IMG/VR virus record: IMGVR_UViG_3300009156_000033
Coordinates: 1 to 56,658 of that record
Reading direction: 5' to 3' (one strand)
DNA length: 56,658 nt
Source of the DNA: a virus
Numbering within the stretch: position 1 is the stretch's first letter; each line of letters opens with the position of its first letter. A model generated the notes under the pieces. The model saw only the letters and a list, made by a program, of their open reading frames with translations. It had not been told where the DNA came from and did not search any database. The translations under genes and the position numbers were made by a program. Below are positions 5,030 through 47,292 of the stretch, in pieces.

Positions 5030-8000
5030 TTATGGGGCTGGGGGTTGCGACAGGCGCTCAGCTTCCTGCACGCGCACGCTCTTGAGCAGGCGCCGGCGCA
5101 GGCGCTCGTCGGGTTCGCGAATCCGCTGCTTGGCTGCGTTCTTGATCGTGTCCGAGTCGATGCCGTATTGAGCGGCGTCCTGCATGAGCTTGTCAAGCGT
5201 CACGCCGTCGCCCTTTTCGAGCGCGTCGAGTATCTGATTGACGAGGCGGGTGCGGTTCTTCTTCGCGATCTCGTTCACACGGCTCAGGAAGGCGCGGTCC
5301 ACTTCGCCGACCGCCATCGCGAGCGGCTTCGCGCCCAAAGCGAGCTTGGCCTTGTCCGCCGCCGTTGGCTTGTAGAGCGGGCGTCCCTGGTCGTCGGTCA
5401 TCCAGCCTTCGCGATTGCCGATGGCTTCGAGCATCTTGCCCCAGTAGGCGGCGGTCGGCGCGAGCTTCGCACCCCACTTGGCGACGTCGTTCAGGTCGCG
5501 GTCCTCGCCCTGCATCGCCGGACCGATGACGGTGTCCCACAACTTCCACGCATCGGACAGCGCCGGGCCCATCCAGTCGGACGCCGTCTTGGGCAGTTGC
5601 GGCGTCACGGCCGGGCCAACATCGACGCCGGCGTAGCCGGGCAGGCCGCGCGACGCCCTCGGCGCCTTGCGATTGAGCCAGTCCTCCAGCGCCCACAGTG
5701 CGCCGATGGCGCCGAGGAACGGCAACGAGCGCAGGAAGTAGATGAAGGCGCGCGGACCGCCCATCGCGAGGAACGCCGTGAGATAACGCACCCACTCGGT
5801 GCCGCGCAGCGATGCGACGAACTCCATCTCCTTGACGAGGTACGCCTTGAACTGGCCGATGAGCCGACCCGGCGGCGTGCGCAGGATGCGGGGCAGCGAC
5901 GCGAGCGTGTAGGTGAATTGGCCGGCGCGAACCGCGTTGCGTGCGAAGGCTTCGGCCTCCTCGCCGCGCAGGGCAAGCTCGCCCTCGGCGTAGCGATAGA
6001 ACGCCGCGAACGCCTCGGGCCGGTTCAGGCGCTCGGCGAACTGGAACATGGCGAGCGGGTGGTACCATGGCACTTCGCTGTGCCCGGCTTCGAGGAACGC
6101 CTGCGCGGTCGCTCCGACGAGGTCGGCGTTGCGGTGCCAGATGTCGCGGAACTCGGGCGAGTGCGCGAACCGTTTGCCCGCGATCCAGTAGCGTGCCCCG
6201 GTCTTCGTCCATGTATGTTGGATGCCGCCGAGCCGGTTGATGAGCGCCGTCGTCGGGCGCCAACCGAGCTTGAGCATCGCTATAATGGTGCGGACGTTGC
6301 CCACGCCGCGGCTGAAGGCGAAGGGCTTCGTGCCGAACGGCGCGAGGATGTAGTCAGCGATCTGGTCGGAGAGCGAGTAGCGCCCGCGCACGTCGTCGAT
6401 GAGCGCTTCGACCTGCTTCTGCGTGTTCGGTGCCAAGTTGGCAAGGTCGATGCGGGCCTGCTTCAGCACCGGGTCGAGCGCGAGCTTCTTGCGCACGCTG
6501 TAGGCGTAGGCGGGCAGCGCGTCGAAGATGTCGTCCTCGCCCTTGAGGATGTTGCGCCGGTGCTGCATCGGTCCGGCGAACTTCGACGCTGGCTTGATGA
6601 CGACCACGGGCGAGCCTTCGGCGCGGAGCATACGCTGGATTTCGCGCACGTCGGTCCCGAGCGCTGCGGCGGCTCGCTGCGCCATGCGGAAGTATTGACC
6701 GCGCGTGAGCTTCGTCGGGAAAGCGGCGCTGGACGCGAACTCGTCGGTGATGGTGAGGCGCGTGACGCTCGGGTTCTCGCGGGCGTAGCGGAGCGCCTTC
6801 TCCTTCGCGGCGACGCGGGTTTCGGCGATGGCGACTGTCGTGCCGTCCGGCGTCACGACCCGGTAGGAGCCGCGCTCGATGTTCGTGATGTAATCGTCGA
6901 TGCCCCAGTGCTCAAGCTCCTCAAGCTCGCGCAAGGCTTGGCGGACGGCGTCCTGTCCCGGTCCGCGCAGGCGGTGGGCGCGGAACGCGTCGGCCTCGTC
7001 CATGCCGCCGAGGATGTCGTGCACCGCTGCGGCGCGTGCCTCGGGCAACGACTCGATGAGGTCGCGCTGCTTGGCGTCGATAATGGCGCGGCGCACCTCG
7101 TCGAAGTAACGACGTATCTCCTGCGCAACGGCGCGCTCGTGCTCAGGCAGTGCATTGAGCGCCGAGTCGTCCCCCGCCATGTTGGCGCGGAGCGCCGTCG
7201 TGATGCGCACGCGTGCTTCGCGGTTAAGCCCACGGCGCAGCGTTCGGAAGTGGTCGGTGTCGCGCGTCACCTGCCCTTGGTAAGCAAGCTCGGCTTCGAC
7301 GAGGCGCGTCACAAGCGGCCCGGCGACGGGGTCGTTGCGGAACTCGAACTCGGGCGACGCGATCCAGTCGCGACCCGGCATCACGTCCTGGCGGCGTATA
7401 GCATCGACGATGTCCGCTTCGCCGCCGAGTTCGACGTCGGCTTCAGGCGGACCGCCGGGCGGTGGCGTGGGCACATCGGGCGACGGCGGGACGGGGGTGC
7501 CTTCGCGGTTCAGGCGACGCTGACGGCGCACGTCCTCGACGGTGGGCATCTCCGATTGTTCGCCCAAGCCCTGCGCTTCAGACCGGCGCGAGAAGAACGA
7601 ACGCACCCCGCTCGGTCCGCCACCCGTCGCACCTTGGTTGGCGTCCGACACCTTCTGGACGGTGTTCGGGTCGCTGACGCCGCGTCGCGGCACGGCACGG
7701 AACCGAGCCTGTAGCAACTCCTGCATACGCTCGGCGGCGGCCTGCACCTGCGAGGCGTCGAACCGCGCCACCATGCGGTTGCCGGTCTTGACGAACTCTC
7801 CGACGATGTTGCGCAGGTCGCGGTCCAGAAACACGCGCCCGCCCGTCGAACGCGCCGCCGGGACGCTGATGATGTAGCCCTGCTGACCGCGTCCCATGCG
7901 GTGAATGCCCTTGGCCTCGACGACGTAGTCGCTGCCGTGCGAGGCGAGGAAGCTCGCCACGGCGCGCCCGCTGACGAGGTCGAAGCGCGGGTCGTGGGCG

Positions 8001-11000
8001 AGATTGGCCGGCGTCCAGTTGCGAGGCATGAGCAGGCCTGTGACGACGTCGCCGGACTGCGACTTGAACCGGACCATCTTGCCTTGGCCGCCAGTCGCGG
8101 TGAAGCCTTGGATGGGGTTGCCCGTGACGAAGTAGCGATTGGCGCGCTGGCCGGCGCGACCCGCGGTCAGGTCGGCGGGGCCCTTGTCGCTGTAATCGAG
8201 CGCCCATTTGCCATGCGCGAGGTCGGCGCCGGTGAGGTGAATTGTGCCCTCGGGCGCATTGACGCCGAAGCGCAGGCGGAACGCGGACGGCGCGACGTTC
8301 ATGCCTTTGGGGAACGTGACGTCGGTCAGCATCCCCTCGTAGGAGTCGCCGGTCTCGGTGTTGGACAGTTCGACGACGTCGCCGGTGCGCGAAAGGATGT
8401 CGGCGAGGCGATCTTGGGTGCCGTGCCAGCGGGCGCGCATCTCACGCAGGCTCATGCGCTGGAGTTCGAGCTTGGTGCGGTCTGCGTCCGTCGCCTTCGA
8501 CAACTTGTCGGCGAGGTCCGCCTCGCGCTTGTCGAAGGACGCTTCGGTGCGCTCCACGAACTTGCGCCAATCCTCGTTCACCTTCGCCTTCGACCCAAGC
8601 CGCCGCTTGAAGTCCGCCTCGATCTCTGCGCCCGTTGGCACGTGCCGGTTGTCGGCGATCTCCCATTGCTGCACGCGCAGGCCAGCGGTGAAGATGTTCG
8701 ACGGGTCGGTGCCTGCGGCGAGTTCCTCGTCGCTCCGTAGCTGCGCGTTCCAATCATCGTGCACGACGATCTCAAGGTCGTAGTCGCCGGTGCTCTTAAG
8801 CTGCTCGATAAGCTGGCGGTAGGCGGGCAGGATTTCGGCGTAGGCGGCCGCCTGATCGGCGTCGGGCAGGAGCGCTTGGCGCCCAGTGAACTTGCGCGCG
8901 ATGTCCTGCTTGACCTCAATGGAGCCGTCCGGGTTGTAGTCGATGCCGAGCCCGAGCAGGCGTTGCACTTCGGGGTTGGCGCCGAGGTACTCGCTCACGA
9001 CGAGGTCGCCGTAGCGGTTGTAGATGTCCTCGGCGTCGATCTTCACGGTGCCGGCGGCTTCGGCGGTCGTGTTCGCGTTGAGCGACTTCATCTTGCGCGA
9101 CGCCATCGCGGCGGGACGCAGCTCGGCCTGCAACGGCAGCACCATGTAGGTGTACTTGGCGCCGTACTTCGAGCCGTCCGGGTTGGTGCCCTCGGACACC
9201 ATGCCGGTGCGTTTGATGCGCCCGAGCGTTTGGACGAAGACGTTGATATCAGCGGCGGCTTGCCCGATTTGCATGTGTCGCGGGCGCTTGTCGCGGAACT
9301 TCACGCTCGCGTGCGCCGACAAGCCCGTCGAGCCGCTCGCGTTGAGCAGCATTCCCTCCACGTCGCCATTGTTAAACCCGTTGACGACGCGGTTCTTGTT
9401 CGCGCGCGGGAACACTCGGTAGATGCCCTCGCCGGTCTCGAAGTTGCGGTACTCGATGCCGCTGGTGCGACCCGTCAGCTCCGACATGCGCACGCCGGCC
9501 TTGGCGAGCTTCTGCACGATGTAGTCGATCGGGCTGATGGGGAAGCGCGACTCGACGGCGTCGGCGAGCGACTGTATCTGGCGGTAGTAGTCGCCCAAGC
9601 CGAACTCGTCCGGGTCAACCTTGTAGATGCGCGTGTCGCCGTTGGGCAGCTTCTCCGTGACGCGCAGGGTGCGTTCGAGGGCGAACTTGAGCAGTTCGTT
9701 CCACCGTAGCTTGATCTCCTGCCCGGGCCGTATGCCATTGTCGGCGACGTAGTGGTCGAGAAACGACTCCATCGTGTTGCTGACCGAGACGAGCGGCTTC
9801 TCGCCCTTCTTCACTGCGGCGATGGCGTCGGCGACGATGTGGTCGGCCTTCGCGGCGAGCAAGAGCTGGCTGATTTGGTTGTGCACGACGGAGGCGAAGT
9901 CCGTCATGTCGATCTGTGTCTGCGTCTGCGCCGTGGAGCCTTGCACGCGCGTCTTCATCGCGGCGCTGAACCGCACGATTTCGCCGAGCACGTCCGTCAC
10001 CGCGTCAATGTCCTCAACGAGCTTGGCCGGGTCGGCGATGGGCGGTTGCTTGACCTCGAAGCTGACGCCGGTGAAGTCGCGTTCGCGCCGGATGTACTGA
10101 CCTGCCTTGGCGAGCGCTTCGCTAACGGCCTGCTGGAGAGCGACGCCGCCGCGCTTCATCGCATCGACGACCTGCGCGAAGGATTGCGCCGACCGCCCAA
10201 GCGCAGTGCGGAAGTACACGGGCATGTTCTCCGGGCGCTTCGCGAACGTGGCGCTCATGTAAAGGACGCCGCCTTGACCGGGGAGCGTGCCCGCGCGTCG
10301 CAGGAGGCCGGGCACGGCGATGGTCGTGCGGTTCGCGCCACTCCCACGCTGCACCTGTCCGCCGCTGATGAACGCTGCCTGCATGGAGTCGGTCGCGTTC
10401 CCGGCCGCTTCGTGCGCCTCGTCTAAGATGACGATGGTCGGGTTGGCTTCGGCGATCCGCTCAAGGAACTCCTGCCGCGCATTGCGCATGTTGACCTGCG
10501 AGTAGGTCGCGAAGATGGCGTTGTAACCTGCGGCGGCGAGACCGCGCTCAGTCACCTCCTGCATGGCGCGGGCTTGGACGCCCGGACCGGGCGCTCGGTG
10601 CACGACGCGCCCCTGCGCATCGACGATGCTCGCCTTGCCCGGGTCGCCGAAGATGAGCGGGCGCACCTCCGTGTGGATGTCGAGCAGGTCGCCGTACATG
10701 TCCGTGAACAGCTTCGGGTCCTTCGTGAAGAACACGGGCACCTTGCCGTTGAGGATGGCGTAGCGAATGAGCGCCGCACCCTGCCGCCCTTTGCCGATGC
10801 CGGTTTCGTCGCCGATGATGAGCGCTTCGCCGCCGGTCTCGATCTGGTCGATAGCGAGCGCGACGCCGTCGATCTGTTCGGCTGCCATGACGTTGCGCAG
10901 CTCGTCCACCTCCATGTTGAGGCGATCGGCGACGAACTCGTCGATGGGACCGACGCGGGCGACGAGCTTGTCGAGCGCAGCGTGCACGCCGCCAGCGATG

Positions 11001-13699
11001 TTCTTGGGGATGAGCGTCCCGAACGGCGGCGCGTCGGATCGCGGGACGTAGGGGACTTGGAACTCCGTGCCCGCTACAGCAGGCGGCTTAGGTACGCTTC
11101 CAGGCTGAGCTGCTCCGCCAGCGCCCGCGCCTCCGGTTGGGGCAGCAGCGGGGGGTTGCGCAGGTGGGACCACGCCACCTTCCACTGGTGCAGCGGGCTT
11201 CCCTCCACCGCTGGGTTGAGGAGCAGCAATTTCGGCGTTCGTGGGTTCGTCAGAAGGTCGCTCGGGAGGAAATTGAGCGCTTCCTGGGGCAGGTCGCGGT
11301 CCAGGCGCAGGTTGGCGTGGGCCACCTCCCCCTCCGACGACTCCGCCACCAGCCGCTCCAGCAGGTCGGCTTGCAGGCGCAGGAAGTCCTCCTGCTTGGA
11401 CGGCGGGCGCTGGCCTTGGCGCAGCAGGGTCAGGAAGTCCGGGCTCTCTTGCACCGGGCACCACACTTGATCGGCGTCGGTCAATCTCACTGCGTATCCT
11501 TTCGGCTTCCCGCCAAACGTCGCTCCACGAATCGTAACGCGCAACCTCTTTCGGGGCGAGTTCGCCGCCGATGGGAAGCTGTCGGCGACCTGCGACCACG
11601 ATAACACGGACCGGCCACTTCGCGCCCTGCTTGGCGTAGAGGTCGCCGGCCACCTCGAAGTTGGCGACGACGTTGTAGTGACCGTAAACGTAGTTCTCGA
11701 ACACCCACTGTGCGCCCTTGCCACCCGGGCCTTCTTCGCGGCGAGCGCCCATGATGATGGAGCCAACGCCGTCGTCCTGCAACGCGTCGAGGGCGCGGAG
11801 CGCGATGATGTGTTCGAGGCGCGTGATGCCGTAGCCGCCGAAGTTGACGTTCGGGATCGAGCCGAACGGCGGGTTGAGCTGGACGAACGGGTAAGACGTG
11901 CCGGGCGTGTAGGTAGTGGCGTCGTGCGGCGTGACGGTGCCGACGCCGAAGCGTTGGAGGGACGCTTGGCGCTTCGGGTCGAGTTCGTTGCCGTGGCCGC
12001 CGGCGACGTTCGAGCCGATGAGCAACATGCCATTGCCGGCGGTGGCGTCGTAAACCGGCGCGTCAGGCGTGATGCCGGCGGCGTAGGAGAGCGCGTAACT
12101 AAGCGGCGCAGGCGTCGAGTAGGCTTGGAGTTCGACGCTGGTGCTGGTGCGGGCGCTGAGCGTCGGCTGACGATTGTAGAGGTCGATGAGCTGCGTGAAC
12201 TTGCCGAGCGGGGCGAGTGCCGGGTTGACGGCGATGGCGTGGGCTTGGGCGACGACCTCGGACTCGACGGCCTCCTGCACGTCCTTGATAGGGCGGCCCT
12301 GGTCGGCGGCCAGCTTGCGCAGGGCGGCGGACTTGGCCTGCGGAGTGTCGGCGGAGGCGATGATGTCGGCGATGGGCGACTGTGCGGCGGGCGGCACTGA
12401 AGCGGGTGCCGCCGGAGCGGTTGGCGGATCGTGCCGATACATCGGCTTGCCCGACAGTGGGTCGTCGCGATAATGCTTGAATCCAAGGCGCTCGTAGAAG
12501 CGGTTCAGCGCGGGCTGCATCGCAGGCGACTCCGCAACAGCGGTCAGGAACACAGGCTTACCGGCAGCGTTCGCCTGTTCGATTACTTCGCGCATCTTAG
12601 CCGTGCCAATACCACGACCTCGCGCTTCTGGCGGCACACTCAAGCCAGACACCTTGAAACCGTCGGGGTGCTCGGTGACGACGATGCGAGCTTCGGGCGC
12701 AGGCGCAGCGGGCGGCGCCGGCGCGGGCGCGCCGGGTTGCTCGACGGGCGGCGCGGGCACAGGAGCAGGCGGCACAGGCGCGGGCGGGGCGGACAAGAGC
12801 GCCGTTGGCCCTCGCGGCGCAGGCGGACGCGGTCTCGGGCGAGGTTCAAGCACGGTTGGCTCGGGCGACGGCGGTGTTGGGCCACGGTCCGTCAACTGCG
12901 CCGGTGGCTCAGGCGTGATGTCGCGGGCGGCGTTGAAGCGGGCTTCGGCACGTGCGGCGACCGACTCGCGCCACGCGTCTAACAGGCTCGGCACGCGCCC
13001 AGTAGCCCGCGCGGTTCCCGCGAGCACGCCGCCGGTCTGCAAAGCATCACCAACCGCGTTGTAGTACGCCAGCGGGTCGGGTTCGCTACCAAAGCGGGAA
13101 TGCTTTACCACGTTCTCAACAACATCAGGCACCTGCGGCAGCGTCGTGGCGAAGATAGCAGGCAGCGCAACTTCCGGCGCTACCGTAGCCGCCCCCGCAA
13201 TCGCCGCACCCGCAGGCGACGTGAGCGCATTAACGCCGCGCACCGCACTTTCTCGCAATCCGATGCTGACCGGCGCCTGCGCACGCTGGACGCTCTCAAG
13301 CAAACGTGGGCGCGCGGCGTTGGCTTCCCACTGTGCTAATTGCTCCGGCGTCATGTCGTTCGTGACGGTGGGTGGACCCAACGGTCCAAGGGCGAACAAG
13401 CGATTGAAGCGATCAAGCAAACCGGGACCGGGCGGCGGACCGCCAGAGAGCTGCTCGGCGGTGATGGGCGGGAGCGGTGGCAGACCCGGCTCCTCGGCAA
13501 CGGTGGTACCAGGCAGCGGTAGCGCCGGGTGCGACACGTACTCGTCTTGGTACCGGGCGGGGACGTCGGCAACGGAGCGCGAAGGGCGTGGGGACGGTAG
13601 CGGAATCAGCGGTTCGACCGCCGACCGCATCTCGGCTTCGGTCGCGTCATCGGGGAACTCGACGGGGCCGACGCCGTCCACTTGGATGAGCTTGGGCAT
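5030..13699 (-). CDS. Giant polyvalent virion protein: GNAT + adenine methylase + strawberry-notch-type SF2 helicase + PLxRFG-like tail
   Basis: A 2,889-residue protein starting MPKLIQVDGVGPVEFPDD at 13699 (upstream stop TGA, one base, then ATG). Approximate order: proline-rich linkers 1-335; a GNAT acetyltransferase (RGRGIGTAKM, about 360); an N6-adenine-methylase-like domain with LNPPFGS (about 610); a Pro/Ala/Gly linker; an SF2 helicase with GDETGIGKGRQ (about 968), ILDEAHE (about 1090), MSATFAKRP and FVQTLGRIKRTG (about 1493), the strawberry-notch pattern; a long helical region; and a C-terminal part with APFGTKPFAF (about 2450), IGQFKAYLVKEMEF and a hydrophobic stretch (about 2640-2675). 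Such polyvalent proteins are thought to be injected with the DNA, like P1 DarB, to protect it from host restriction. The methylase lacks a confirmed SAM loop, so activity is unproven. Confidence 0.85.
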   Translation of the reverse strand: MPKLIQVDGVGPVEFPDDATEAEMRSAVEPLIPLPSPRPSRSVADVPARYQDEYVSHPALPLPGTTVAEEPGLPPLPPITAEQLSGGPPPGPGLLDRFNRLFALGPLGPPTVTNDMTPEQLAQWEANAARPRLLESVQRAQAPVSIGLRESAVRGVNALTSPAGAAIAGAATVAPEVALPAIFATTLPQVPDVVENVVKHSRFGSEPDPLAYYNAVGDALQTGGVLAGTARATGRVPSLLDAWRESVAARAEARFNAARDITPEPPAQLTDRGPTPPSPEPTVLEPRPRPRPPAPRGPTALLSAPPAPVPPAPVPAPPVEQPGAPAPAPPAAPAPEARIVVTEHPDGFKVSGLSVPPEARGRGIGTAKMREVIEQANAAGKPVFLTAVAESPAMQPALNRFYERLGFKHYRDDPLSGKPMYRHDPPTAPAAPASVPPAAQSPIADIIASADTPQAKSAALRKLAADQGRPIKDVQEAVESEVVAQAHAIAVNPALAPLGKFTQLIDLYNRQPTLSARTSTSVELQAYSTPAPLSYALSYAAGITPDAPVYDATAGNGMLLIGSNVAGGHGNELDPKRQASLQRFGVGTVTPHDATTYTPGTSYPFVQLNPPFGSIPNVNFGGYGITRLEHIIALRALDALQDDGVGSIIMGARREEGPGGKGAQWVFENYVYGHYNVVANFEVAGDLYAKQGAKWPVRVIVVAGRRQLPIGGELAPKEVARYDSWSDVWREAERIRSEIDRRRSSVVPGAREPGLPDPAAPRPAPAVQAGGLPAPASRPAGAAGGGVVGGGGGPRQPAPGPRPAPGSAQFPPERPSDEPTNAEIAAPQPSGGGKPAAPVEGGVVPPAQPPAAAPTGGAGAGGAAQPGSVPKPPAVAGTEFQVPYVPRSDAPPFGTLIPKNIAGGVHAALDKLVARVGPIDEFVADRLNMEVDELRNVMAAEQIDGVALAIDQIETGGEALIIGDETGIGKGRQGAALIRYAILNGKVPVFFTKDPKLFTDMYGDLLDIHTEVRPLIFGDPGKASIVDAQGRVVHRAPGPGVQARAMQEVTERGLAAAGYNAIFATYSQVNMRNARQEFLERIAEANPTIVILDEAHEAAGNATDSMQAAFISGGQVQRGSGANRTTIAVPGLLRRAGTLPGQGGVLYMSATFAKRPENMPVYFRTALGRSAQSFAQVVDAMKRGGVALQQAVSEALAKAGQYIRRERDFTGVSFEVKQPPIADPAKLVEDIDAVTDVLGEIVRFSAAMKTRVQGSTAQTQTQIDMTDFASVVHNQISQLLLAAKADHIVADAIAAVKKGEKPLVSVSNTMESFLDHYVADNGIRPGQEIKLRWNELLKFALERTLRVTEKLPNGDTRIYKVDPDEFGLGDYYRQIQSLADAVESRFPISPIDYIVQKLAKAGVRMSELTGRTSGIEYRNFETGEGIYRVFPRANKNRVVNGFNNGDVEGMLLNASGSTGLSAHASVKFRDKRPRHMQIGQAAADINVFVQTLGRIKRTGMVSEGTNPDGSKYGAKYTYMVLPLQAELRPAAMASRKMKSLNANTTAEAAGTVKIDAEDIYNRYGDLVVSEYLGANPEVQRLLGLGIDYNPDGSIEVKQDIARKFTGRQALLPDADQAAAYAEILPAYRQLIEQLKSTGDYDLEIVVHDDWNAQLRSDEELAAGTDPSNIFTAGLRVQQWEIADNRHVPTGAEIEADFKRRLGSKAKVNEDWRKFVERTEASFDKREADLADKLSKATDADRTKLELQRMSLREMRARWHGTQDRLADILSRTGDVVELSNTETGDSYEGMLTDVTFPKGMNVAPSAFRLRFGVNAPEGTIHLTGADLAHGKWALDYSDKGPADLTAGRAGQRANRYFVTGNPIQGFTATGGQGKMVRFKSQSGDVVTGLLMPRNWTPANLAHDPRFDLVSGRAVASFLASHGSDYVVEAKGIHRMGRGQQGYIISVPAARSTGGRVFLDRDLRNIVGEFVKTGNRMVARFDASQVQAAAERMQELLQARFRAVPRRGVSDPNTVQKVSDANQGATGGGPSGVRSFFSRRSEAQGLGEQSEMPTVEDVRRQRRLNREGTPVPPSPDVPTPPPGGPPEADVELGGEADIVDAIRRQDVMPGRDWIASPEFEFRNDPVAGPLVTRLVEAELAYQGQVTRDTDHFRTLRRGLNREARVRITTALRANMAGDDSALNALPEHERAVAQEIRRYFDEVRRAIIDAKQRDLIESLPEARAAAVHDILGGMDEADAFRAHRLRGPGQDAVRQALRELEELEHWGIDDYITNIERGSYRVVTPDGTTVAIAETRVAAKEKALRYARENPSVTRLTITDEFASSAAFPTKLTRGQYFRMAQRAAAALGTDVREIQRMLRAEGSPVVVIKPASKFAGPMQHRRNILKGEDDIFDALPAYAYSVRKKLALDPVLKQARIDLANLAPNTQKQVEALIDDVRGRYSLSDQIADYILAPFGTKPFAFSRGVGNVRTIIAMLKLGWRPTTALINRLGGIQHTWTKTGARYWIAGKRFAHSPEFRDIWHRNADLVGATAQAFLEAGHSEVPWYHPLAMFQFAERLNRPEAFAAFYRYAEGELALRGEEAEAFARNAVRAGQFTYTLASLPRILRTPPGRLIGQFKAYLVKEMEFVASLRGTEWVRYLTAFLAMGGPRAFIYFLRSLPFLGAIGALWALEDWLNRKAPRASRGLPGYAGVDVGPAVTPQLPKTASDWMGPALSDAWKLWDTVIGPAMQGEDRDLNDVAKWGAKLAPTAAYWGKMLEAIGNREGWMTDDQGRPLYKPTAADKAKLALGAKPLAMAVGEVDRAFLSRVNEIAKKNRTRLVNQILDALEKGDGVTLDKLMQDAAQYGIDSDTIKNAAKQRIREPDERLRRRLLKSVRVQEAERLSQPPAP
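11074..11490 (-). CDS. Candidate overprinted gene (138 aa) inside the giant gene
   Basis: A second frame on the same strand is open over the Pro/Ala/Gly linker of the giant protein. It has a GTG start at 11490 with GAAAGGAT about 5-7 nt upstream, and reads MRLTDADQVWCPVQESPDF at the N-terminus and SLEAYLSRLL at the C-terminus. It is leucine-rich and looks like a globular helical protein, not low-complexity sequence. In the giant frame, third positions here are only about one-third G/C in a 52-codon sample, while other Pro/Ala linkers of the same protein stay GC3-rich. High GC3 in the second frame is partly automatic for GCN/CCN/GGN codons, so this is suggestive, not proof. No family is recognised. 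Confidence 0.35.
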   Translation of the reverse strand: MRLTDADQVWCPVQESPDFLTLLRQGQRPPSKQEDFLRLQADLLERLVAESSEGEVAHANLRLDRDLPQEALNFLPSDLLTNPRTPKLLLLNPAVEGSPLHQWKVAWSHLRNPPLLPQPEARALAEQLSLEAYLSRLL

Positions 13700-13700
13700 G

Positions 13701-14516
13701 TCATTTGGCCGACGGCGTCCACTTGAGGTTGCCGTCCGCGTCGCGGCTGAAGCGACCGACGATGGCGTTGGTGTTCGCGGGCGCGTTCGTCGAGACGGTC
13801 GGCGCAGGCACCAAGGCGCGGTCGCCCATGAGCGTGCTGCGACCACGCCGCACTGCTTCGAGCTGCTGGAGCAGTTCACCGTAACGGGCGTGCTTCGGAT
13901 GGTTCGGGTTGCGGGCAGCGGCGAGCATGTCGATGCTGTCGAGTTCGGCAAGGATGCCCCGCTCCATCGCATTGTAGCCCGGCATACGCTGTGCCTCGGT
14001 GAGCGGCTTCTCGACGTAGTCGGGGATGTAGTGCTGCGTCTTGGGGCCGGAGCGCCCGAACAGGCCGACGCGCTGCTTGGTCGCCGGGTCGATGGCTTCG
14101 ACGAGGGTCGTGTCCAAAGCTGACATGGGCGCCGCGAACTCCTTCTCGGCGAGCGCCGCGCGGCGGTTCTCAACGGCGATTCGCGCCTTGTCGTAATCGA
14201 GCAGGCGCGACTCCTGCGCCGTTTGGTTGGCTTCCTGCGCCGTCTGATGCGCGACCTGCTGCTGGAACTGGGCGGCCTGCTGCCCGAGCCGCTGAAGGTC
14301 GAGCAAGCGCGACTGCTCAAACTGGCGCTGGCGCTCCGCCTGCTCAGCTTCGCGTTGCGCCAACTGCGCCTGTCGCTCGAACCGGGCTTCGGCGAGTGCT
14401 GCGGCGCGCTGGTTCTGGTCGGCGACGGCGATACCAGCGCGTGCGCCCGCTTCGAGCGCCTGCGTGAAGAACGCCGGACTCACGTTGAGCCAAGGAGGGA
14501 TGTCGCCAAGGGCCAT
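13701..14516 (-). CDS. Coiled-coil virion protein
   Basis: A 271-residue protein. Residues 25-130 form a continuous Gln/Ala/Glu/Arg-rich helix (AALAEARFERQAQLAQREAE), followed by a smaller C-terminal domain. It lies directly upstream of the giant polyvalent gene (stop and next ATG one base apart) in the tail/internal-protein run. By size, helicity and position it resembles small internal or ejection proteins of short-tailed phages, but no family was identified. Confidence 0.65.
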   Translation of the reverse strand: MALGDIPPWLNVSPAFFTQALEAGARAGIAVADQNQRAAALAEARFERQAQLAQREAEQAERQRQFEQSRLLDLQRLGQQAAQFQQQVAHQTAQEANQTAQESRLLDYDKARIAVENRRAALAEKEFAAPMSALDTTLVEAIDPATKQRVGLFGRSGPKTQHYIPDYVEKPLTEAQRMPGYNAMERGILAELDSIDMLAAARNPNHPKHARYGELLQQLEAVRRGRSTLMGDRALVPAPTVSTNAPANTNAIVGRFSRDADGNLKWTPSAK

Positions 14517-17254: not shown

Positions 17255-18262
17255 TTAGGGCGGCGTGTACGCCTCAAGCTCGAAGGACGCCGGCCCGATG
17301 CAGGTCGGATCGCTGGACACGTCGAAGGTGTAAACGCCGACGGGCGACGTGCCTTGTGGGCCAGCGGGGCCGTTAGCGAGGTAAACGGACAAGTCGGGGC
17401 ACAGGATGTTGAAGCGCCACTTGGCGAGGCCGACGCTGTATTGGATGCCGGCGCTGTCGCCGTCGTGGTAGCCGACGCAGGGGAGTCCGGGCGGGATGGC
17501 GGCGCTGAACTCGTCGAGGTTGCCGTCCCACACGTAGGTCCAGTCGGCTTGGTTGAAATCTTTGACGCGAAGGCGGCAGTCCATCGGGTCGTTGCACCAA
17601 TCGGCGGTGTCGCAGGAGGTGACTGTGAGGGTGAACAGCTTGACGCAGGTCGTGCTGGTGGACGGGGATGTGGCGCGAACGACGAAGCCGAAGCTGGCGG
17701 AGACGGTGGGCGTGCCGGAGATGACGCCGCCACTGGACAAGTGCAGGCCGTCGGGCAGCGAGCCGGAGATGCGCGTCCAAGTGACGGGAGCGGTTGCGCC
17801 GGTCTGCGTCAGGACGACGGAGTAGGGGACGCCGACGGTGCCTTCGGGCAACGGCGAGGGGTTCGCGATAGTGCAGGCGGGACGACGGGCGTGAAGCTGG
17901 TTGTATTGGTCGCCTATACAACCAGCGAGCTTAACGGCGGCGGCGTCGGCGATGCTCTGCGCTGCGGCGTTGAACTGCGCCTGCGTGAAGCCGTCGGGCA
18001 GGTAGCGGACCTCGATCGAGCCGTCGCAGCAGGTGAACCGGAGCGGGGAGATGCCGGGTGGCGGCGCGAACGGGATCGCGCCCTCGGGCACTACCACCGG
18101 GAAAGGATAGCTGCCTTGGTCACAGGAAAATCCGCTCGGGCACTGTAGCAAGAACCCGGTTTGAGCGCTCAAAAACGTCACGCCTTGTCCATAAAACGGC
18201 GGCGACGGAACCGCACAACAATCTGGAGACGGTTCGCATGTCACAGCTTGGGGCAAGCTCAT
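17255..18262 (-). CDS. Ig-like-domain virion protein
   Basis: A 335-residue protein with a Cys-rich N-terminus (CEPSPDCCAVPSP, FTCCDG). At about residues 110-200, PLPEGTVGVPYSVVLTQTG, LPDGLHLSSGGVISGTP and FVVRATS form the signature of He_PIG/putative-Ig domains (GxxGxxYs..L..sG..P..sw....G.LP.GL.ls..tG.isGTPt). Such domains sit on virion surfaces and bind carbohydrate or protein weakly. It starts with ATGA overlapping the HNH gene stop. A surface or tail decoration role is inferred. Confidence 0.65.
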   Translation of the reverse strand: MSLPQAVTCEPSPDCCAVPSPPFYGQGVTFLSAQTGFLLQCPSGFSCDQGSYPFPVVVPEGAIPFAPPPGISPLRFTCCDGSIEVRYLPDGFTQAQFNAAAQSIADAAAVKLAGCIGDQYNQLHARRPACTIANPSPLPEGTVGVPYSVVLTQTGATAPVTWTRISGSLPDGLHLSSGGVISGTPTVSASFGFVVRATSPSTSTTCVKLFTLTVTSCDTADWCNDPMDCRLRVKDFNQADWTYVWDGNLDEFSAAIPPGLPCVGYHDGDSAGIQYSVGLAKWRFNILCPDLSVYLANGPAGPQGTSPVGVYTFDVSSDPTCIGPASFELEAYTPP

Positions 18263-44135: not shown

Positions 44136-44297
44136 ATGACGCCAGTATTTCACAGCGAGCTTCCGACAACAAGCCTTCGCGGTGCGGGTTGGCGTGTTGT
44201 AGGCGAGCGTGGTGGCGGTTCATGGAGCCGCGAGAGCCGCCCGCGAGTGGACACGCACCCGCTTCAGACAAAGATGTTGTGGGAGGTGACGACGTGA
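44136..44297 (+). CDS. Small protein upstream of the polymerase genes (53 aa)
   Basis: MTPVFHSELPTTSLRGAGWR then basic and Ser/Arg-rich sequence ending KMLWEVTT. It ends in GTGA at 44294-44297, whose GTG is the start of the glycosylase-exonuclease gene, and carries that gene's GGGAGG site in its own last codons. This supports both starts. Function unknown. Confidence 0.55.
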   Translation: MTPVFHSELPTTSLRGAGWRVVGERGGGSWSRESRPRVDTHPLQTKMLWEVTT

Positions 44298-45760
44298 ACG
44301 CGGACGCCGTAGTACCCAACCACCCGCCGTCCATTGACCCCGGCGCGATCCGTCTCGCCGTCGTAGCTGAAGCCCCGGCCGTCGAGGAATGCTCGTGGCG
44401 TATCTGCTCCCAAGGCCACGGTTACGGTGGCGAGCACTGGGAGAACCGCCAGATCGTCACGCGCGATCGCTGCCCTGCCTGCGGCTCGACCCAGTGGACC
44501 GAGCGCCCGACGCCCTTGGTCGGCCAGAGCGGACGCCTCCTGAACGACCTCCTCAAGGACGCCGGTCTGCCGCGTGAGCGCGTCTGGGTCGGCAACGTCT
44601 CGCGTCGTCCGCTTGCCGAAGCCGAAAAGACGCTCGACCAGAACCGCGGCGGCTTGGCCCGCCTCGCCTACGACCTGTCGCAGTTTAAGCCCAACTGCGT
44701 CCTCGCGCTGGGTGGCCTTGCGCTCAAGGCGTTCTTGGGCGACCACCGCTTCGGCGACTCCATCACCAACTGGCGCGGCAGCGTGTTTGAGGGCGTACTC
44801 GATGGCGTCACCTACAAGGTCGTTGGGGCAATGCACCCAGCGGCCATCTTGCGCGAGCCGAGCCAGCTTGCCCTTCTGCGCTTCGACGTTGCCCGGAGCG
44901 TGGCCGAGGCGGCTTCCAGCACGCTGGACACCCCCCGGCGCGTTGTGGACGCGCCAAACGACGCCTACGCGGTTGTGGAGGCCCTCCAGCGGATCCGGGC
45001 ACGCCGCGAACCCGTTGGCTTCGATATTGAGGGAGGGTGCGAAACGGGCGTCACCGTCCTGTCGTTCGCCGACACCCCACTGCACGCCTTGAGCGTGCCG
45101 TTTCGGCGCATGGATTGGTCGCGGGTGTGGGGCGACCAGGGCGAGGACACCATCTGGTACGCCGTCCGCCTCCTGTGCGAGGACGAGGCGGTGCCCAAGG
45201 TTATGCACAACGCTGGGTACGAGACGTTCGCCCTGCGCTGGCTGCACGGCATCCGGATCCAAGGCGTCGAGGACTCGATGCTGGCTTTCCACGCCGTTTG
45301 GCCCGAGCTGGACAAGGCCCTGGACGTGGTCGCGTCGCTGCTCACCCGTCAGCCGTACTGGGGTACGACGAAGGACTGGCGCACCGACGAGGACCGCGAC
45401 ACCTACAACGCCATCGACTCCTGCGTCTGCCTCGAAGCGTTCCAAGCTATCCAACGCCTTGAGGAGTGGACGCCCGCCGTGGCGGCATACTACCGGCACT
45501 GCCGCGACCTGCTCGAGCCGTGCGGCGAGATGTCCTTCGCCGGCATCCCCTACGACGCTGCGGCGCGCGACACCCTCGTTGCCAAGCTCAAGGCCGAGGT
45601 GTATGCGTTGACCGGCGAACTGGACACGCTCGCGGGCATCGCACCGCCGACGTTCGCCGAGGTTGCCGAAGCCGTCTGCATGAAGATACGCCTGCCAAAG
45701 GTCGGGGACTGGGCCGACATCCTGACGTATGCCCGCCCAACGATGCGCGAGACGCTATGA
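44294..45760 (+). CDS. Uracil-DNA glycosylase-like domain fused to a 3'-5' exonuclease
   Basis: A 488-residue protein from the GTG at 44294 (GGAGG 7 nt upstream). Residues about 15-215 are a family 4/5-type UDG fold: VVAEAPA (first loop, usually GxxPg), PLVGQSGRLLNDLLKDAGL, VWVGNVSRRPL and VVGAMHPAAILREP (the HPxxxL loop). A Cys insertion (RDRCPACGSTQW) resembles a zinc ribbon. Residues about 235-420 are a DnaQ-like exonuclease, PVGFDIEGG onward, the proofreading part normally fused to family A polymerases. SPO1-group phages are recalled to fuse a UDG-like domain to their polymerase. It overlaps the polymerase gene by ATGA. Confidence 0.75.
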   Translation: MNADAVVPNHPPSIDPGAIRLAVVAEAPAVEECSWRICSQGHGYGGEHWENRQIVTRDRCPACGSTQWTERPTPLVGQSGRLLNDLLKDAGLPRERVWVGNVSRRPLAEAEKTLDQNRGGLARLAYDLSQFKPNCVLALGGLALKAFLGDHRFGDSITNWRGSVFEGVLDGVTYKVVGAMHPAAILREPSQLALLRFDVARSVAEAASSTLDTPRRVVDAPNDAYAVVEALQRIRARREPVGFDIEGGCETGVTVLSFADTPLHALSVPFRRMDWSRVWGDQGEDTIWYAVRLLCEDEAVPKVMHNAGYETFALRWLHGIRIQGVEDSMLAFHAVWPELDKALDVVASLLTRQPYWGTTKDWRTDEDRDTYNAIDSCVCLEAFQAIQRLEEWTPAVAAYYRHCRDLLEPCGEMSFAGIPYDAAARDTLVAKLKAEVYALTGELDTLAGIAPPTFAEVAEAVCMKIRLPKVGDWADILTYARPTMRETL

Positions 45761-47292
45761 AGCAGCCCACCCTCAATTTCGACGAGTCGCCCAGCCCGGT
45801 GGCCCGGGAGCGATGTGAGCGGGAGCCCGTGCAAGGACGCTCATCGGCGCATGGTTCCGCCGGCACAAACGCCTTGCACAGCGGCGACTCGTCGATTGAC
45901 CCGGACTGGGAGGTGCAGGATGACGACGACCCGGACGACGGCGATCCGGCGCCCGAACCGAGCGACCCGACGGACGACTCCGCGAAGCCCAAGCGCACCA
46001 AGAAAGCGCCCAAGCCCCCGCCCGACCCCGCCGGCCCCCGCTCCATCGCCGCCCGCATCGTCTCGCTCGCGCAACAAGGTATCCTCACCGACACCGAACG
46101 CGGCGAACTCGATACCCTCCTCGATCGCCACATCAACAGCGGCTCGACCAAGCAGCTCCGCGAGTGGCTTTACGAACGCTGGGCCCTGCCGAAGCGCTAC
46201 ATCAAGGAGGGCTCGCGCAACACGACCAAGCTCTCCGTCGCCGTAGACGCCCTGCTTGCCACGTACCGCCAAACCCGCGATCGCCGCCTTGAGCTCCTGC
46301 TGCAACTCAGCGATCGCAAGACGCAGCTCGAATCGCTCGGCTGCAAGCTCGACAAGGACGGGCGCATACGCTTCTCCCTGAACATCGCCGGCACCAAGGT
46401 CGGGCGCATGGCCTGCAACGCCTCGCAAACCGGCTCCGGATTCAACCTACAAACCGTCACCCGCGCCCACCGCCACCTGTTCGGCGCCGACCCGGGCCAC
46501 GACTTCTACCAGATTGATCTCAAGACGGCCGACGGCTGGACCATTGGCGCGGAGTGCGCCGCCCTCGGCGATACCCGGATGCTCGACGACATGCGCGCCG
46601 GCTTCAAGCCTGCCAACGCCGTCGTCCTATTGCTCGAGCACGGCGTAGCGGTCAATTCTTGGCCCATGGAGCGCTGTCTTGAGGCCCAGCGCGGCATCGA
46701 CAAGGGTGCGTGGCAATACCTCGCCTGCAAAAAGGGCATCTGGGGCACGGCTTACGGCCTCGGCGACGTCGCACTGAGCGAGAAGATCCTTGAGGAAGCG
46801 TGGAAGGAGGCCGGCGAGCTGGTCCGCGTCACGGCCGCCGACTGCAAGCGCCTACAGGCCGCCGTCCACGCCCGCTATCCCGGCATCAAGCGGCGCTGGG
46901 AACGCATTAAGATGCTGCTTGCCCGAGACGGCAAGCTGGAGGCGTGCGGCGGCCAAGTCCGCGACTTCTTCGGCCCAAAAACCGACCACGGCACGCACAA
47001 GGAAGCCTATGCCTACTCGCCTGCGGCCAACACCGCATGGGCCAATGGCCTCGCCCTGCTCGCCATCTGGCGCGACCCGGCCAACATCGCCCCGGACGGC
47101 ACACGCATCTTCCGCCCGCTCCTCCAGGTTCACGACAGCGTCCTCGGCCAAGCCCCGGTCGAGCGCCGTGCGTGGGTGGAGGAACGCATACCGACGTGGT
47201 ACGCGAACCCGCTGACGGTCGCCGGCACGACCTTCGTCATCCCCTACGAAGCGTGCCGCGGGACGAACTGGGGCGACGTGAAGGCGATATGA
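45757..47292 (+). CDS. Family A DNA polymerase (catalytic part)
   Basis: A 511-residue protein. The first 100 residues are an acidic/proline linker. Motif A is DFYQIDLKTADG (about 248, catalytic Asp at its start); motif B lies around CKKGIWGTAYGLG (about 325); motif C is QVHDSVLGQ (about 458), with HDSV instead of the usual HDEV. An upstream SGFNLQTVTRAHRHLF gives the template/dNTP-binding region. The proofreading domain is on the separate overlapping upstream gene, so a two-polypeptide enzyme is predicted. The downstream gene overlaps by ATGA. Confidence 0.88.
   Translation: MKQPTLNFDESPSPVARERCEREPVQGRSSAHGSAGTNALHSGDSSIDPDWEVQDDDDPDDGDPAPEPSDPTDDSAKPKRTKKAPKPPPDPAGPRSIAARIVSLAQQGILTDTERGELDTLLDRHINSGSTKQLREWLYERWALPKRYIKEGSRNTTKLSVAVDALLATYRQTRDRRLELLLQLSDRKTQLESLGCKLDKDGRIRFSLNIAGTKVGRMACNASQTGSGFNLQTVTRAHRHLFGADPGHDFYQIDLKTADGWTIGAECAALGDTRMLDDMRAGFKPANAVVLLLEHGVAVNSWPMERCLEAQRGIDKGAWQYLACKKGIWGTAYGLGDVALSEKILEEAWKEAGELVRVTAADCKRLQAAVHARYPGIKRRWERIKMLLARDGKLEACGGQVRDFFGPKTDHGTHKEAYAYSPAANTAWANGLALLAIWRDPANIAPDGTRIFRPLLQVHDSVLGQAPVERRAWVEERIPTWYANPLTVAGTTFVIPYEACRGTNWGDVKAI

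Follow-up and report, generated by a model that had tools for sequence, protein, structure and literature searches.

A second gene in the linker of a giant methyltransferase-helicase gene

In the virus record IMGVR_UViG_3300009156_000033 of IMG/VR (positions 1 to 56,658; this whole stretch of 56,658 nucleotides is called the window below), a giant gene on the minus strand encodes an adenine methyltransferase and a helicase joined by a low-complexity linker, and a second, small gene in the DNA of this linker is almost certainly real. As far as can be judged from the sequence, it is very probably a complete gene in the +1 frame, with the anatomy of one, namely its own start codon and a putative ribosome-binding site. 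The original prediction, made from the window by itself, had read the linker as overprinted with a gene, and the open reading frame (ORF) that it described was recovered exactly, with 138 codons in the second frame, a GTG start, and the GAAAGGAT site. Its reading is now supported, the nested frame being conserved and free of stop codons in relatives.

The nested ORF runs in the +1 frame relative to the giant frame, from the GTG at 11490-11488 to the TAG at 11076-11074. The guanine-plus-cytosine (GC) content at its codon positions 1, 2, and 3 is 0.77, 0.41, and 0.88, compared with about 0.66, 0.44, and 0.89 in the real coding regions of the giant gene, and the giant frame over the same stretch has values of 0.88, 0.77, and 0.41. 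The prediction had drawn attention to the low third-position GC of the giant frame; it does lie below that of other Pro/Ala linkers (0.67-0.79), but it is nearer 0.41 than the one third that had been given. With a codon model fitted to the remainder of the giant gene, the nested frame scored +0.18 per codon over the overlap and the giant frame -0.41, and for other segments of the giant gene the mean was +0.40 in frame and the +1 frame never rose above -0.50.

An open second frame could be a by-product of GC-rich coding, in which long frames stay open by chance and are not used. In the GC-rich window, +1 and antisense frames are often open, and shuffles of the window sequence alone expect just 0.24 stop codons in the giant frame. 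In so GC-rich a genome, and with +1 open as far back as 12486, an open frame in the window alone is weak evidence. The nested frame nevertheless goes beyond chance, because full-length homologues were found in eight other contigs and because there is a systematic excess of open +1 frames at a GC content below 0.5. Homology and start conservation over deep divergence, substitutions that follow the register of the small gene, and a confidently predicted fold all argue against an unused frame, and a conserved second-frame protein already refutes it; we regard chance as a negligible explanation.

The nested gene recurs at the same locus in distant phages

Viral contigs were scanned with the helicase and the methyltransferase, which yielded relatives at 54-66% helicase identity. 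A scan of viral contigs with the small protein itself found nothing beyond one near-identical contig (3300050511_000667), which is no independent evidence. Full-length homologues of the small protein, with 36-48% identity, were found in eight other phage contigs (L004, L005, L006, L009, L010, L011, L012, and L013). They lie in the same place and in the +1 register, the giant frame is open throughout in all eight, and each starts with an ATG that aligns to the GTG of the window. Here the nested frame is the conserved one and the linker residues of the giant frame drift, which is the opposite of a stop-ridden second frame across a conserved linker.

The wider helicase scan showed an ORF at the linker position in nearly all viral relatives. 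An unselected test was made with 71 distinct viral loci in which 250 or more codons ahead of the helicase are open, and the 720 bases around the boundary were scored. Beside the helicase, 64 of the 71 loci have a run of 90 codons or more in +1, and 9 have one in +2; inside the helicase core, such a +1 run occurred in 9 of the same loci. Among the loci with a GC content below 0.5, the +1 run was present in 16 of 17, a run in the other sense frame in none of 17, and a +1 run in the helicase core in 1 of 17. Of the seven loci that lack the +1 run beside the helicase, five (L005, L009, L014, L051, and L068) have the ORF slightly further upstream, in a longer linker.

The linker ORF was also detected in cyanobacterial, Desulfovibrio, and a few other genome contigs; one of these loci is a prophage of Desulfovibrio sp. 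ZJ369 (L103). The cyanobacterial contigs L099, L102, L115, L140, and L178, which include a mobilizable Leptolyngbya plasmid, carry a nested gene in a methylase-helicase gene. No copies of the small gene away from the giant gene were found in the phages, plasmids, or viral contigs searched. The ORF is unannotated in both of the annotated relatives that have one at this position, Bacteroides phage BS-TP4 (PQ571277) and the Leptolyngbya plasmid AP017309, the gene table of the latter being incomplete by design, and no published description of the small gene was found in the literature covered, which left out most subscription journals.

Most linker ORFs encode one protein family with a confidently predicted fold

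For a comparison of the encoded proteins, 81 distinct linker ORFs were linked by BLAST at E<1e-4, with shuffled copies as control. This joined 53 of them as one family, with no links among the shuffled sequences, and 10 further ORFs, including L014, L094, and the Desulfovibrio members, scored higher than any shuffled control against a profile built from these 53. The alignment of the closest family was too divergent for a pattern scan, so the helicase profile was used to reach distant relatives; iterating the closest-family profile stopped at 24 loci, and single linkage with profile comparison went further. Members of the family share a W-x-P close to the N-terminus, a short L-x-V strand, a series of helices, and, at the C-terminus, a helix with L-x-x-W/F. 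Shorter linker ORFs of about 90-110 codons lie near the same place in L026, L042, L066, L077, L079, L097, L098, and L100; most are in the +1 frame with a Shine-Dalgarno (SD) sequence, only L066 has clear profile homology to the main family, and they could represent a second nested family or a truncated version.

AlphaFold2 predicted the fold from nine homologues with a predicted local distance difference test (pLDDT) value of 93.6 and a predicted template modelling (pTM) score of 0.88. For a second branch, with a different query and 21 sequences, the values were 92.8 and 0.87, and the order of elements, compared by eye, was similar. Foldseek with the predicted fold gave no match in PDB (best E 5.0) or BFVD (best E 2.4), and sequence searches of Pfam, PHROGs, and PDB with the small protein gave no match either (in PDB none below E 0.1). 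Because none of these searches gave a match, the small protein represents a new family, and its modelled fold is very likely new as far as these libraries reach.

Inheritance of the small gene parallels that of the helicase (Mantel r 0.88, permutation maximum 0.17). This bears on the idea that the small gene is an out-of-frame homing element, comparable to the ShiLan domain with its HNH endonuclease hidden in a phage methylase. The co-inheritance with the helicase, the presence of the gene in nearly all viral relatives rather than a patchy distribution, and the SD sequence do not fit such an element. None of nine members has a match to HNH or any other nuclease in Pfam or PHROGs, and the fold has no match in PDB, all of which makes a homing element very improbable.

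Start signals favour independent initiation

The start codons of the 81 linker ORFs are ATG in 78 cases and GTG in 3. An SD match of at least four bases at proper spacing precedes 81% of these starts and 14% of 2740 control ATGs, the former figure being somewhat inflated because, beyond the closest family, the presence of an SD sequence partly guided the choice of start. The exact alignment of the ATG codons in the closest family is free of this bias.

A programmed frameshift has to be considered as another way to use the nested frame. Ribosomes would slip into the +1 frame after the methyltransferase, which would thereby be fused to the 138-residue domain, and the frame of the window, open back to 12486, would permit this. 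In 46 of the 81 linker ORFs, however, an in-frame stop codon lies no more than 10 codons upstream of the start, in 19 of them immediately before it, and SD sequence and ATG are conserved. The SD sequences and upstream stops therefore point to free initiation and away from a fusion by frameshifting, which we consider highly unlikely.

Both frames are maintained, and the small gene is the more constrained one

Synonymous shuffles that kept the residues and the codon usage of the small protein were made over the 81 linker ORFs. No stop codon was observed in the giant frame, where 158 were expected, and the third frame had 927 with 903 expected. The second-frame ORFs of this comparison had been preselected as open, so that only the giant-frame count is unbiased; for the second frame, the test on 71 loci described above is the unselected one.

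Among the nine closest members (36 pairs), the small frame shows 40% identity and the giant frame 25%, and in 31 of the 36 pairs the giant-frame identity is above the 21.5% expected from the small frame only. Six disjoint close pairs have 177 substitutions in the overlap, of which 100 are at third positions of the small gene, corresponding to first positions in the giant frame. Changes that are silent in the small gene and nonsilent in the giant gene occur at 2.0 times the expectation in these pairs, and the reverse class at 0.67 times. In the flanking helicase of the same pairs, 385 of 514 substitutions are at third positions of the giant gene. The comparison of substitutions in the two frames, which had been proposed as a check, thus favours an overlap, the changes in close pairs clustering in third positions of the small gene. 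Because substitutions follow its register, the small gene is the more constrained frame, and the giant frame is mainly kept open. At the level of sequence comparison, these results show purifying selection on the predicted small protein, with both frames kept.

The content of Pro, Gly, Ala, Ser, and Thr in the linker of the window is 0.70, and 0.68 after the synonymous codons of the small gene are shuffled. Since shuffled codons keep the composition of the linker, the small gene largely writes the linker. The suggestion that the giant frame is constrained by another frame thus holds, but the direction is mostly the reverse of what "overprinted" implies, as it is the small gene that dictates the linker.

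The host gene and other features of the window

The positions of the two genes and of the domains of the giant protein are given in Table 1. The giant protein combines an adenine methyltransferase with a superfamily 2 (SF2) helicase in a single ORF (NPPF motif, PF13872), as polyvalent methylase-helicases do. The family phrog_9133 is one of unknown function, and the methyltransferase call also uses the NPPF motif read in the translation. Two separate genes in place of one continuous giant gene were considered and rejected, because methyltransferase and helicase share one open frame in 9 of 9 family contigs.

Table 1 Features of the giant gene and of the nested gene in the window.
Feature	Position	Strand	Basis
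Giant ORF, TTG start as called	5030..14320	-	ORF list; Pfam and PHROGs matches
Adenine methyltransferase domain of the giant protein	11606..12142	-	phrog_9133, E=3e-6; NPPF at 11864-11875
Shine-Dalgarno-like GAAAGGAT before the GTG	11503-11496	-	Five bases upstream of the start
Linker of the giant frame, rich in Pro/Ala/Gly and overlapped by the small gene	11073..11494	-	Between methyltransferase and helicase
Overprinted gene, 138 codons + TAG, GTG start, product of 15.7 kDa, isoelectric point (pI) 5.2	11490..11074	-	ORF, homologues, predicted fold
Strawberry-notch-type helicase, N-terminal NTPase (AAA_34)	10040..10891	-	PF13872, E=2e-20
Helicase_C_4, helicase C-terminal domain	8768..9484	-	PF13871, E=8.6e-6; bit score 26.1, under the Pfam gathering cut-off of 30.5

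The true start of the giant gene is likely the ATG at 13699, which gives a product of 2889 residues, because the codon-position GC further upstream does not fit the giant frame. The stretch 13699-14320 (minus strand), the first 207 codons of the TTG-started ORF, is probably noncoding in the giant frame, and an upstream gene (14516..13701) ends at this ATG. A GNAT acetyltransferase domain (PF13508) lies N-terminal to the methyltransferase, at 12476-12658 on the minus strand (residues 555-615 of the giant protein).

Elsewhere in the window, two overlapping ORFs on the plus strand (44189-45760 and 45466-47292) match the consecutive stretches 557-888 and 894-1207 of the DNA polymerase family phrog_17, and they may represent a split polymerase gene or a frameshift. 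The ORF at 17258-18262 (minus strand) encodes a protein with a putative immunoglobulin (Ig) domain (PF05345), possibly a virion surface protein.

Possible role of the small protein

The archetype of the methylase-helicase dyads among polyvalent proteins is DarB of phage P1, which is part of the virion head and protects the incoming DNA (PMC5512222). The P1 protein Ulx "Aids DarB localization" (PMC9024508) and is incorporated together with DarB (PMC12810830). The gene ulx is the next one downstream of darB, and its product has 146 residues. In DarB-like podoviruses, a Ulx homologue was not found, yet its existence was expected by the authors (PMC9144972).

In the small gene, ribosomes would initiate inside the mRNA of the giant gene, so that both proteins would be made from one transcript simultaneously. 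Like P1 DarB, the giant protein would travel in the virion and, once ejected, act on incoming DNA, and the small acidic protein would bind it, or the loading machinery, as an escort that might hold the giant protein soluble or inactive and aid its packaging or ejection. Such a role has been proposed for Ulx with DarB in P1. Judged from the analogy with DarB, the giant protein is probably packaged in the virion. Near the giant gene in relatives, we found a DNA ejection protein (L060), matches to virion structural and tail-spike proteins (L014), a tape-measure-like sequence (L004), and a portal gene (BS-TP4). A role as escort or loading partner of the giant protein is our leading, still tentative proposal, because the small protein has the right size, is acidic (the products of the linker ORFs have a median pI of 4.6, with 96% below 6), is co-inherited with the helicase, and was not found here without it.

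Two other roles rank behind that of an escort. The small protein could act alone in the host, for example as an acidic antirestriction or anti-defence protein that is carried with the giant protein; the acidity of the family would suit such a protein, and the antirestriction genes of P1 cluster with darB. The member of the window is only moderately acidic (pI 5.2), and in the collections searched no copy was found apart from the giant gene, which makes a function linked to the giant protein more likely, so that we think an independent role possible but unlikely. It could also regulate the synthesis or activity of the giant protein, for example by inhibiting the methyltransferase or the helicase inside the producing cell, as the strict placement between the two catalytic domains and the co-inheritance might suggest. 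Related enzymes without the small gene exist, and this role seems to us somewhat less likely still.

Taken together, we consider it reasonably probable that the small proteins form an unrecognised family with a new fold, obligate partners of virion-delivered methylase-helicases, encoded almost only in overprinted form, and kept for a very long time in phages from several bacterial phyla as well as in some plasmids of cyanobacteria, with the small gene dictating the character of the linker. The putative translation of the small gene is supported by the conservation of its start codon and SD sequence. Several observations count against a nested gene with an escort role. For 18 of the 81 linker ORFs, including that of the cultured phage BS-TP4, the position is shared and no homology is detectable by BLAST or profile. 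The chromosomal relatives in Bacteroidota, which have short upstream parts, and a relative in Acinetobacter phage MD-2021a are without the linker gene; the enzyme can therefore exist without it. In the window, the neighbours of the giant gene have no match to a known virion family, so packaging in this phage is proposed by analogy. Comparison of Ulx with three family profiles gave hhalign probabilities of 0.04-0.2%. By sequence, the small protein is thus no homologue of Ulx, and it would be Ulx-like in its working at most. The helicase of P1 darB has no match to the helicase profile and stands outside this helicase family; darB, too, contains open +1 frames.

The loci L104-L175, mostly Bacteroidota chromosomes, form a large set of methylase-helicases without the linker gene, and a helicase tree could date its gain or loss.

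If the reading as a conserved nested gene is true, a whole family has been overlooked by gene callers, and low-complexity linkers can host genes for long periods. The small protein would also be a specific candidate for the small partner that DarB-like virion enzymes have been missing and that is expected in podoviruses (PMC9144972), and the locus would be a system suited to testing the long-term stability of overlapping genes.

Comparison with known systems

The closest published layout is the ShiLan domain (PMC11855218), where the methylase gene of a mycobacteriophage contains an HNH endonuclease in another frame. In both cases, the out-of-frame protein is encoded within a part of a phage DNA methylase gene that is free of stop codons. 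ShiLan lacks a ribosome-binding site and is a homing endonuclease of patchy distribution, whereas the small gene described here is co-inherited and nearly constant, has an SD sequence, and shows neither nuclease similarity nor a match to a nuclease fold. The host gene of the overlap belongs with the polyvalent methylase-helicase dyads, with a Strawberry-notch-like helicase; the main text of the survey of these proteins (PMC5512222) does not contain the words "overlap" or "linker", and the nested gene is new here. With P1 Ulx, the small protein shares a length of about 140 residues and being encoded with a giant methylase-helicase, in the case of DarB one of the virion. Ulx differs in being the product of a separate gene downstream of darB and in having no sequence similarity, and the escort role is our proposal for the protein described here.

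Complete genes in another frame of a longer gene are classical in phages, as in the case of E and K of phiX174 or Rz1 of lambda. Such nested genes are known singly and mostly in narrow groups, and those of phiX174 and lambda, found in narrower groups, serve lysis or are small accessory genes. In contrast, the nested gene described here would encode a globular protein, it occurs in dozens of distant phages, and it lies in a low-complexity linker that it largely dictates. What is new is a nested gene whose predicted folded product is conserved as a family in dozens of distant phages and in a plasmid of a cyanobacterium.

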